The notes under the pieces: model-generated
What the model was told of the DNA's origin: nothing
Seen by the model: only the letters and a program-made list of their open reading frames with translations
Database searches by the model: none
Origin: Xenorhabdus cabanillasii
GTDB taxonomy: Bacteria; Pseudomonadota; Gammaproteobacteria; Enterobacterales; Enterobacteriaceae
Length of the DNA stretch: 64,000 bases
Assembly (NCBI RefSeq): GCF_003386665.1
Contig: NZ_QTUB01000001.1
Location: 1,922,001-1,986,000, forward strand
Direction of reading: 5' to 3'
Position numbers and translations under genes: made by a program
Part shown: positions 41,228 to 44,484 of the stretch, one piece after another
Numbering within the stretch: position 1 is the stretch's first letter
Layout: the number at the start of each line of letters is the position of its first letter

Positions 41228-43993
41228 TCAGCGTTTAGTTTTAAAGTACAGTAACCGATTGGCATTACTGACCACGGTAATTGAAGAGAGAGCCATGGCA
41301 GCTCCGGCAATTACTGGATTCAATAATGTTCCGGTTAAGGGGTAGAGAATACCTGCTGCAATCGGGATACCCAGCGTATTATAGATGAATGCGCCAAATA
41401 AATTTTGTTTCATATTACGCAATGTCCCCCTGGACAATTCAACCGCGTCTGCAACACCATGCAGGCTATGTTGCATCAGGGTAATTGACGCAGTTTCAAT
41501 GGCGATATCACTACCACTTCCCATGGCAATCCCCACATCTGCTTGTGCCAATGCAGGTGCATCATTGATGCCGTCACCAATCATGGCGACTTTCTTACCT
41601 TCAGACTGGAGATCCTGAATGGCTGCGGCTTTACCATCAGGTAGCACTCCTGCTATGACTTGATCAATACCAGCCTCTTTGGCTATAGCATTGGCTGTTA
41701 CAGGATGATCACCGGTCAGCATGACTAAACGATAACCCTGAAGACGTAAGCGTTGCAGGGCGGAGACGGTATCCTGACGTAATGGGTCTCGTATTGAAAA
41801 CAGAGCGGCCATTTTTCCGTCCACTGCCAGTATAACGGGAGTAGCACCTTTTTCTGCCTGTTTGGCTACCTGCGATTTAAATTCTGTTGTATCAATCTGA
41901 TTTTGTTCAAGTAAGTTCATATTTCCTAACAACAGTGTTGTATTACCAACATTCCCGCGTACACCCGTTCCGGCTAAAGTATGAAATTGTGTTACTTCAG
42001 GTAATTGTTGATCTTCAATTTGTTCACTTTCAACTTTCAGCAGAATGGCCTTTGCCAAAGGGTGATTTGAACCGCTTTCCAGTGCACCAGCCCACAGCAA
42101 TACTTGCTGTTTGGTGAACCCATTGAAAGTTTGAATTTCAGTAACCTGTGGCATCCCTTCGGTCAATGTTCCTGTTTTATCGAAAACAAGGGTATCGAGC
42201 TGGCTGGCTTGTTGTAGGGCATCAGCATCACGTACCAGTACACCCAATTCCGCCGCTCTTCCGACTCCGGAAATGATGGACATTGGTGTTGCCAGGCCGA
42301 GCGCACAAGGACAGGCAATAATCAATACTGTGGTGATGATAACCAGTGAGTACATGATTTGGGGAGCCGGTCCGATGAAAAACCAGATCGCCCCCGCAAT
42401 TAGGGCGATAGCAACGACGACAGGCACAAATATTGAAGATATTTTATCCGCCAATTGGCCGATTTCAGGTTTACTGCTTTGTGCCTGACGTACCAGATTG
42501 ATAATTCTTGCTAAAGTGGTTTGGCTACCCACTGCTGAGGCTTTGAAGAGGACGGTTCCATCTTGCACCACAGTTCCTGCACGAACTGTATCACCAATTG
42601 ATTTTTGTTGAGGGGCCGCTTCACCTGTCAGCATCGCTTCATCTAACCAGACCGTGCCGTGAATGATTTCACCATCCACGGGAACTTTATCCCCTGTTAC
42701 CAGCCGCAATGTCATATCAGGTTTAACATCAGCTAATGGCAATGTTTTCTCACCACCTTCTATGATGACCCGAGCTGTCGGAGGTGTTAAATCCAACAAT
42801 CGCTCAAGTGCTTTTGAGGAGCGTTGGCGTGCACGTTGCTCTAAGGCGTGTCCGAGGTTAATTAAGCCAATAATCATAGCGCTGGCTTCATAATAAATGT
42901 GGCGCGCCTGAGGCGGGAAAATATCCGGCCATAAATTAACGCTGATAGAGTAGAGCCATGCGGCCCCCGTTCCTAGTGCAACTAATGTGTCCATTGTGGC
43001 ACCGCCATTTTTCAGGCTTTGCCACGCATTGCGGTAAAAATGTCCGCCAGCAAATATCATTACGGCAAGAGTAACCAGTCCGATGCTTAACCAAATTGTA
43101 CGGTTATCTGGAGAGAGCATCATATTGTCACCAATCATGCCCCAAATCATGACCGGAACACCGACAGCCAGAGCGAGGGCCGATTGCCAGCGGAAACGGC
43201 GCATATTGGTCTGAGCAATTTGCTGCTGACGCTCCCGGCGTTCGGTTTCATCCAGAATGACCTCTGCGCCATAACCTGCCTTGATAACAGCATCAACCAG
43301 AACGTTGGGAGATGCTGTCCCCGTGACCAGTGCACTTCGCTCTGCAAGGTTGACTCTGGCGTTCTCAACTCCTGCAACAGATTGCAGAGCTTTTTGTACT
43401 TTATTGACACAACTGGCACAGCTCATACCATCCAATAAAAGCTGGATGCTGCCATGGTCATTTGCAGTGGATTGTGTATCCGGAGTAGGATCTACTGCCG
43501 CTGCCAAAAACTCCGGTGCTTGTGAAGCAGATTCTGAGGCAAATGTTGTCAGCGGCTTATTTTTTGGGGAATTGGTTGCTGGGGAAATAGTTTCCCCTGC
43601 TAATTCAGCGTGATAACCCGCTTGCTTTACGGCATTAATCAAAGCATGGTTTTCAGCTTTGCCGTAAATTTTGGCTGTTTGAGTATTGACTTCAGCCGCG
43701 ACAACACCAGCCACTGATTCCAGTGCTTTTTGGGTTTTGCCAGCACATTTCATACAGCTTAAACCTGAAAGCCGTAGTTCAACATCGGGGTGAGTTGCCA
43801 GAGTGGCTTCATAACCCGCATCAATAATGGCAGCAATCAATGTATCTTGAGTTACACTACCGATCACTTTAGCGTATTCAAGGGTGACTTCTGCTTGTTC
43901 AACACTTGACAGATTTTCCAGTGTCTTTTTGACACTGCCGACACAGTGCATACAGGTCAAGCCCTGAAGTGCGAGAATGGTTGTTGTGGACAT
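41228..43993 (-). CDS. copA: Copper-exporting P1B-type ATPase CopA with three metal-binding domains
   Basis: A 921-aa ATPase, about 87 residues longer than E. coli CopA because it has three N-terminal heavy-metal-associated domains instead of two: GLTCMHC (C14, C17), GLSCMKC (C80, C83) and GMSCASC (C192, C195). The catalytic core shows the transmembrane CPC in [12 protein letters not shown], the phosphorylation site DKTGT, the hinge [14 protein letters not shown], and the YN and MSS membrane copper-site motifs. It pumps Cu+ into the periplasm. It is divergent from cueR and has a CueR promoter. A -1 frameshift signal after the second domain (43480-43568) predicts a 145-aa chaperone form. AGGAG precedes the ATG. 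Confidence 0.96.
43480..43568 (-). promoter_or_regulatory. Predicted programmed -1 frameshift signal (slippery site plus pseudoknot) in copA
   Basis: On the minus strand the in-frame heptamer C-CCA-AAA (43568 to 43562) is followed, in the -1 frame, by one codon and TAA at 43559-43557. Five bases after the heptamer GCCGCTG (43556-43550) can pair with CAGCGGC (43503-43497). Inside that loop CCGGAGT (43516-43510) can pair with ACTCCGG (43486-43480), beyond the first stem. The two 7-bp perfect stems interleave as an H-type pseudoknot. The frameshifted product would be 145 aa with the first two metal-binding domains. Confidence 0.75.
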
Positions 43994-44039
43994 AACAAAA
44001 TCTCCTGAAACAGAGTGATATACTTATCATTATCCTTTT

Positions 44040-44070
44040 AGGCTAAACCTTCCTGCAAGGGGAAGGTCAA
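44040..44070 (-). promoter_or_regulatory. CueR-activated copA promoter
   Basis: Read on the minus strand, TTGACC and TAGCCT are separated by 19 bases, the long spacer of MerR-type promoters. The spacer carries the perfect dyad ACCTTCC-CCTTGCA-GGAAGGT, nearly identical to the E. coli CueR site. Confidence 0.92.
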
Positions 44071-44079
44071 GGGGAAAAT

Positions 44080-44484
44080 ATGAATATCAGTGAGATTGCC
44101 CGTAAGACCGGTTTAACCAGTAAAGCCATTCGGTTTTATGAAGAAAAAGATCTGATTATTGCACCAGAGCGGGGAGATAATGGTTATCGTTTTTACCAAC
44201 AGAAACATATTGATGAATTGATACTCTTACGTCAGGCGAGAGAAATAGGGTTCACGATTGAAGAATGCCGGGAGTTATTACGGTTATCCCGCAATCCCAA
44301 TCGTCACAGCATAGATGTGAAAACAGCGACGCTACAAAAAGTGACTGAAATAGAAGAAAAAATTGTGAAATTACAGCAGATAAGGGAAAAGCTATTAGCG
44401 TTAGCTGCCGAATGCCCGGGAGATAATGGGGCCGATTGCCCCATAATTGAACAACTATCTGGTTGCTGTGCCAATCATGATTGA
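44080..44484 (+). CDS. cueR: Copper-responsive MerR-family activator CueR
   Basis: A 134-aa MerR regulator (E. coli 135). The winged helix ([21 protein letters not shown]), dimerisation coiled coil and copper-binding loop with C112 and C120 are all present, which distinguishes CueR from zinc or redox sensors of the family. It bends the copA promoter when Cu+ binds. AAGGGGA precedes the ATG. Its 3' end overlaps that of the convergent ybbJ by 10 bases. Confidence 0.96.

Follow-up and report, generated by a model that had tools for sequence, protein, structure and literature searches.

A programmed -1 frameshift signal in the enterobacterial copper pump gene copA, predicted to release a soluble two-domain Cu(I) chaperone in Xenorhabdus

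The closest described system to the locus reported here is copA of Escherichia coli, whose shifted product is annotated in K-12 as a joined CDS (YP_009518752.1, "soluble Cu(+) chaperone"). E. coli copA frameshifting is mentioned as a personal communication in PMC5009743, where the product is 70 aa long; PMC9548414, which cites Meydan 2017 and Drees 2017 for it, names ribosome profiling and an independent study in its support. A frameshift has also been proposed for the human orthologue ATP7B and is argued against in PMC9548414; that dispute is no evidence for or against the bacterial signal. Operons of a stand-alone CopZ gene with CopA resemble these systems in that a small soluble HMA protein is paired with the pump. 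A 2017 abstract reportedly places similar elements in copA of other bacteria, and a Xenorhabdus member is therefore to be expected. Among the titles listed in our literature searches on copA frameshifting, Xenorhabdus, Pasteurellaceae (which led to a paper on copZ of H. influenzae) and copZ/Sodalis, none dealt with two-domain products or swapped frames. The kind of element is already known from E. coli; the predicted two-domain product is a new variant of it, and the swapped frames described below are the more novel lead.

We examined copA of Xenorhabdus cabanillasii within a window of 64,000 nucleotides, by which we mean the whole stretch of DNA analysed and to which the coordinates in Table 1 refer. 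Among the best 80 of 319 related loci, the closest relative with a name was Xenorhabdus indica, with 95% identity in the best segment. We take the divergent regulator gene to be of the MerR type and probably cueR, and the dyad between it and copA to be a probable CueR operator. We are highly confident that this copA carries the programmed -1 frameshift signal of enterobacterial copA, predicted here to release a soluble two-domain Cu(I) chaperone. This is the best explanation in view of the anatomy of the cassette, its conservation and covariation at the nucleotide level, its orthology to the E. coli signal, and the fact that no stand-alone HMA gene was found in this genome.

Table 1. Features of the copA locus, with positions in the window.
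Feature	Position	Strand	Basis
copA, Cu(+)-exporting P1B ATPase, 921 aa, 3 N-terminal HMA	41228..43993	-	ORF; Pfam HMA x3, E1-E2_ATPase, Hydrolase
Stem 2, 3' arm ACTCCGG	43480..43486	-	sequence; pair counts
Stem 1, 3' arm CAGCGGC	43497..43503	-	sequence; pair counts
Stem 2, 5' arm CCGGAGT	43510..43516	-	sequence; covarying pairs
Stem 1, 5' arm GCCGCTG	43550..43556	-	sequence; pair counts
-1 frame stop TAA, one codon past slip	43557..43559	-	sequence
Slippery heptamer C-CCA-AAA, linker between domains 2 and 3	43562..43568	-	sequence; CCCAAAR conservation
Predicted frameshift product, CopA(Z)-like copper chaperone, 145 aa, ends ...NSPKK	43557..43993	-	inferred
Metal-binding domain 3 (CASC), last and orthologous one	43271..43435	-	HMA match; tree clade 100/97
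Metal-binding domain 2 (CMKC)	43610..43777	-	HMA match
Metal-binding domain 1 (CMHC)	43808..43975	-	HMA match
Shine-Dalgarno-like AGGAGA ahead of copA ATG	44001..44006	-	sequence
Dyad ACCTTCC-N7-GGAAGGT between regulator gene and copA	44047..44067	.	sequence
Regulator gene, divergent to copA	44080..44484	+	ORF

Read along the minus strand, the in-frame codons around the slip are TCC CCA AAA AAT AAG, and in the -1 frame the codon AAA (43562-43560) directly precedes the stop. A spacer of 5 nt (43561-43557) separates the slip from stem 1, and the two 7-bp stems interleave to give an H-type pseudoknot 5 nt downstream of the heptamer. Direct reading bore out all the coordinates that a preliminary description of this DNA had given for the heptamer, the -1 TAA, the spacer and both stems. 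The three metal-binding domains and the 145-aa two-domain product that it had proposed likewise agree with Pfam, which finds three HMA stretches in the full 921-aa CopA and two in 43557-43993; from the ATG at 43993 the product would comprise 144 codons and one additional Lys. Shared with the E. coli copA/CopA(Z) system are the orthologous linker before the last metal-binding domain, an in-frame C-CCA-AAR in that linker with a -1 stop directly after it, one codon on, and a stem 1 of CCGCTG/CAGCGG interleaved with a stem 2. Among the features of a CopA(Z)-type signal we also found a pseudoknot 4-6 nt downstream with covariation, and synonymous-site conservation at the cassette. The Xenorhabdus heptamer ends in AAA, whereas that of E. 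coli ends in AAG, and where the E. coli type releases a single HMA domain of about 70 aa, the predicted Xenorhabdus product has two HMA domains in 145 aa.

The two-stem score of Xenorhabdus copA, computed over the 120 nt after the heptamer, was reached by none of 3000 synonymous recodings. However, the score at the slip position (39) is tied with that of the adjacent codon, and the best separate one of 885 positions along the gene scores 38; the stem score by itself is not unique along copA, and the weight rests on conservation. A search of 43300-44100 against Rfam gave no match at the gathering score, and six matches at E values up to 10 all fell far below it. Just upstream of the slip, the stretch 43569-43600 contains TTCCCCA twice, and is five codons longer than in X. 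indica (L005), with a GGGGAAA/TTTCCCC hairpin upstream.

The sample of relatives consisted of the best 80 of 319 loci, and therefore leans to close relatives. Within it, CCCAAA[AG] in frame with a -1 stop one codon on was found in 78 of the 80 loci with species names, the cassette being absent from Moellerella (L052) and Arsenophonus (L064). With this copA and 14 further family loci added, slip and stop are kept in 93 of 95 family sequences, a sample in which L011 and L122 are identical over 240 nt and probably represent the same genome twice. Across these 93 sequences nine different residues (His, Ser, Phe, Cys, Val, Tyr, Leu, Pro and Ala) stand ahead of the slip Pro, yet the codon at that place ends in C throughout. 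Past the slip Lys, the next two codons come in 14 forms, encoding 12 amino-acid pairs, and are always NNT followed by RA, so that the -1 stop is TAA (31 sequences) or TGA (62). A -1 stop thus stands at this place in 93/93 sequences with the slip, and at only 6.3% of codon junctions in these copA genes. Outside this set, locus L270 (G424) keeps the slip and stems and has lost the immediate -1 stop, its -1 frame staying open for 18 codons.

Of 247 genomes drawn evenly from the order, 90 had a CopA match at E 1e-25. All 15 family members among these 90 carry the pattern CCCAAARNNTRANCCGYTG, and the remaining three family members of the draw, with genomes of 1.0-1.2 Mb, have neither CopA match nor pattern. 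The exact slip/stop pattern was found in copA of none of the 75 CopA-bearing genomes of the order outside the family. Matches to the pattern in G011, G123, G164 and G089, all outside the family, were set aside as chance: the regions around one match each contained no HMA (G123 has three matches, and the region around one was examined), and copA of G089 sits away from its pattern match. A slightly looser cassette pattern occurred in 29 genomes of a 60-genome draw from the family, and any HMA in 35. Genomes of this draw with an HMA and no pattern were G304, in which the frames are swapped, G322, in which the region is lost, G313, G318 and G320, which have a different CopA type, and G346, with one weak match.

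Synonymous change, scanned over 38 disjoint pairs from 78 sequences, was at the slip the lowest of 889 seven-codon windows (7 changes observed versus 65.9 expected, z -9.1), and a second low covered the 5' arm of stem 2 together with the 3' arm of stem 1. Of 75 distinct sequence segments, 37 were aligned with MAFFT and used to count pairs. Stem cells were paired in 90.6% of cases, versus 15-48% when the 3' arms were slid by 1 to 3 columns, a figure on the high side because the count omits several rows of Xenorhabdus in which the loops are longer or stem 2 is weaker (e.g. L006, L007, L014, L030 and L031). Cells with a double change numbered 30 against a shuffled mean of 11.3, and none of 500 shuffles was as high; two of the five measures, pairs with a double change and further pair types, were not above the shuffles (86/500 and 321/500). 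In an alignment-free search of 43 of the 94 slip-bearing sequences, each compared with 60 synonymous shuffles, the two stems were reached by no shuffle in 29 and by at most three in 38. L058 (12 shuffles), L065 (7), L080 (6) and L079 (5) did not stand out, L031 gave no match, and in some sequences the best second stem was not the homologous one. Stem 2 varies with its pairing kept, as in CCGGAGT/ACTCCGG, GACCGGAA/TTCCGGTC, CAACTGGA/TCCAGTTG and GTTGCCGG/CCGGCAAC.

The preliminary description had held that slip site, stop, spacing and stems would hardly agree by chance, and had staked this on heptamer and -1 stop being conserved in relatives and on synonymous conservation and stem covariation at the linker. 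All of these were found, and chance stems can be rejected for the cassette as a whole on the shuffles, the covariation, the synonymous constraint and the 3000 recodings. Taken alone, the stems are less striking (39 versus 38).

By alignment and domain phylogeny, the frameshift signal is to be regarded as orthologous to that of E. coli copA, and as always placed before the last metal-binding domain. The E. coli C-CCA-AAG, its -1 stop and its stems align with those of the Xenorhabdus gene, in keeping with the precedent invoked in the preliminary description. A tree built from 42 HMA domains of 15 genomes, on few columns and with many open forks, groups the last HMA domain in one clade (100/97). 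Exactly one domain follows the slip in 94/94 sequences that have it, and the in-frame domains before it number one in 38, two in 41 and three in 15, with L057 and L058 counted as having one because their first domain is out of frame. The site is therefore fixed while the array varies, and with changes in the upstream array the predicted chaperone would have one, two or three domains. The earlier suggestion that the signal had moved to the linker after the second domain did not hold, and movement between linkers is rejected since the last metal-binding domain is one clade and a single domain always follows the slip. Loci L028, L031, L032 and L033, of the Xenorhabdus/Photorhabdus type, have one upstream domain (with a remnant of a second in L031) and keep the cassette. 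We rejected Morganella L057 and L058 as natural one-domain forms, the first metal-binding domain being out of frame with the rest.

At E 0.001 the Xenorhabdus genome has four HMA matches, three in CopA and one ZntA-like, and no separate HMA gene of the CopZ kind was found, in which it differs from the CopZ and CopA operons. The frame of the ZntA-like gene (L002, at about 1610358 of C1 in the same genome) is interrupted at a run of A, which may reflect a genuine change, an error in the assembly or slippage. No HMA frame below 700 aa was found at E 1e-5 in ten family genomes checked. In 9 of the 29 cassette-bearing family genomes (G302, G303, G309, G314, G319, G323, G334, G337 and G338) small HMA frames of 93-204 aa occur elsewhere, so that some hosts may have soluble HMA proteins besides the shift product. 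The small frame of G314 lies about 1.3 kb from copA, and family genomes such as G302, G314 and G334 have 204-aa HMA frames away from copA.

Candidate signals were found in two other families. In f9, which we take to be the Pasteurellaceae, a CopA match was present in 43 of 61 genomes, 12 of them with multi-domain and 31 with single-domain proteins. CCCAAA[AG] with a -1 stop lies in the last linker of 10 of the 12 multi-domain genes; L194 has C-GCA-AAG with a -1 stop and two stems, as read by eye, and L198 shows no slip signal in that linker. The stems are often of other sequences, such as CCTGATCC/GGATCAGG. The two-stem score was reached by at most 2/100 shuffles in six of the ten (L184, L187, L189, L195, L196 and L199), and the stems of L192 (9/100) and L203 (46/100) are unconvincing against shuffles. 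In L207/L095 (G054) CCCAAAG is followed by a perfect 10-bp hairpin, GGGCTATCAG/CTGATAGCCC, instead of a pseudoknot (1/100 shuffles), and L200 also has a hairpin (0/100). A four-domain CopA of f11 (L213/L092, G010) has A-AAA-AAG with a -1 stop after domain 3, a GGAG upstream, and a 6-bp hairpin CCGGAG/CTCCGG (1/100 shuffles) with no clear pseudoknot (18/100). Its layout resembles the dnaX arrangement.

In nine of the 43 f9 genomes, from seven genera, the frames are swapped, with NCA-AAG-TAR closing the chaperone ORF and the pump in the -1 frame (L183, L185, L188, L190, L191, L193, L202, L259 and L263). These nine were counted by the CA-AAG-TAR ending; an automatic class of 11 included L186, L201 and L251, which lack it and were not counted, and assigned L190 to another class owing to an ATG immediately ahead of the last CxxC. 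Within the family of Xenorhabdus, the zero frame encodes the chaperone in G304 (L221/L214) and G399 (L223), and the pump joins it in the -1 frame at the same C-CCA-AAA. G407 (L264) is likewise swapped, its junction being of another sequence. All three were taken from the 30 best matches to a G304 query and 12 loci picked later, and are not a random draw. The stems after the swapped junction were reached by at most 1/80 shuffles in eight of the nine f9 cases (14/80 in L183), and by 1, 0 and 0 of 80 in L221, L223 and L264, with part of the codon use for the L264 shuffles taken from L089. Four pairs gave dN/dS of 0.07-0.15 for the pump and 0.10-0.25 for the chaperone, with one locus used twice and one pair having saturated dS; in these pairs both frames are thus under purifying selection. 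The known A_AAG sites of IS1222 (G_CGA_AAG) and Bacillus cdd (A_CGA_AAG) are similar to the f9 endings, and A_AAG is described as a real, relatively low-level -1 site in PMC5009743, which fits the NCA_AAG endings of the f9 chaperone ORFs. The f9 genes differ from them in forming a cellular chaperone/pump pair, with the stop directly after AAG and with downstream stems.

At the swapped junctions the pump would be made by a -1 shift. We hypothesize that the copA frameshift is a reversible, two-way evolutionary switch, and that swapped genomes need the -1 shift for the full pump; this is probable on our data. Under this hypothesis the pump is the default and the chaperone the shifted product in our Xenorhabdus copA and in most relatives examined, and the roles are exchanged at the same point in the swapped genomes. 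Since swapped frames occur in three family and nine f9 genomes, the polarity may have flipped repeatedly. Some f9 genomes have a separate HMA gene ahead of a pump ORF that starts at an ATG of its own, so that a series from fused recoded through swapped recoded to operon, which may have run in either direction, can be proposed.

Several other readings should be weighed against these hypotheses. The heptamer and stems could be a by-product of protein and codon constraint in the PKxxPL linker, with no programmed slip; P, K, P and L are themselves conserved, and a two-stem score of 38 elsewhere in copA nearly equals the 39 found here. However, wobble bases hold constant across changes of amino acid, the slip has the lowest synonymous change in the gene, and double changes preserve the stem pairs, so we consider this reading very improbable. 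The cassette could also be active and mainly tune the level of the pump, attenuating it by early termination, with an N-terminal protein that has no job of its own. Such a role is favored by Moellerella L052 and Arsenophonus L064, which lack the signal and in which a stand-alone HMA gene was not found either, so that the product is dispensable in some lineages. The same holds for family f21, where there was no slip in the last linker of 16 loci (15 three-domain, one two-domain) and no HMA frame below 700 aa at E 1e-5 in 17 genomes; multi-domain CopA can thus also do without. Against attenuation as the main function stand the f9 genomes, where an HMA ORF, stand-alone or frame-swapped, is adjacent in 30 of 31 single-domain cases (not G271) versus 0 of 12 multi-domain ones; in six of the latter a small HMA frame lies at another place in the genome. 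The constraint on the chaperone ORF where the frames are swapped (dN/dS 0.10-0.25) also speaks against it, and we regard it as improbable.

For the swapped relatives, the pump might instead be made by termination-reinitiation or from a cryptic start, and candidate starts do exist. A GTG, TTG or ATG precedes the last CxxC in the pump frame in six of the nine f9 cases, and L221 offers a GTG, L223 a TTG, and L264 a TTG, an ATG and a GTG. Yet L191, L259 and L263 have no ATG, GTG or TTG from the opening of the frame to the last CxxC. The opening of the pump frame precedes the end of the chaperone stop by only 10 nt in L188, L190, L193 and L202, and precedes the heptamer by only 6 nt in L264. The stems, moreover, exceed all but at most 1/80 shuffles in eight of nine f9 cases and in all three of the family. 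A start inside or after the last domain may nevertheless be used. We find internal starts unlikely on the whole, while granting them some weight, and favor the -1 shift as the source of the pump in these genomes.

We propose the following model for Xenorhabdus copA. Ribosomes would make the two N-terminal metal-binding domains and then meet C-CCA-AAA, where the H-type pseudoknot 5 nt downstream would hold them. A fraction would slip in tandem to CCC-AAA, stop at the TAA one codon on and release a soluble 145-aa two-domain Cu(I) chaperone, and those that do not slip would translate the full pump. Consequently, one mRNA would yield pump and chaperone in a set ratio. Slippage in Xenorhabdus itself, its efficiency, its induction by copper and a chaperone role of the two-domain product are what we infer here.

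In conclusion, the presented data would extend to Xenorhabdus a cellular -1 frameshift that is among the few with good support; its recoding site stays in place, and the arrays it would release have one, two or three domains. The swapped lineages make it testable how an efficient frameshift gene becomes two genes, and whether making both products from one site gives tolerance of indels beside the slip.
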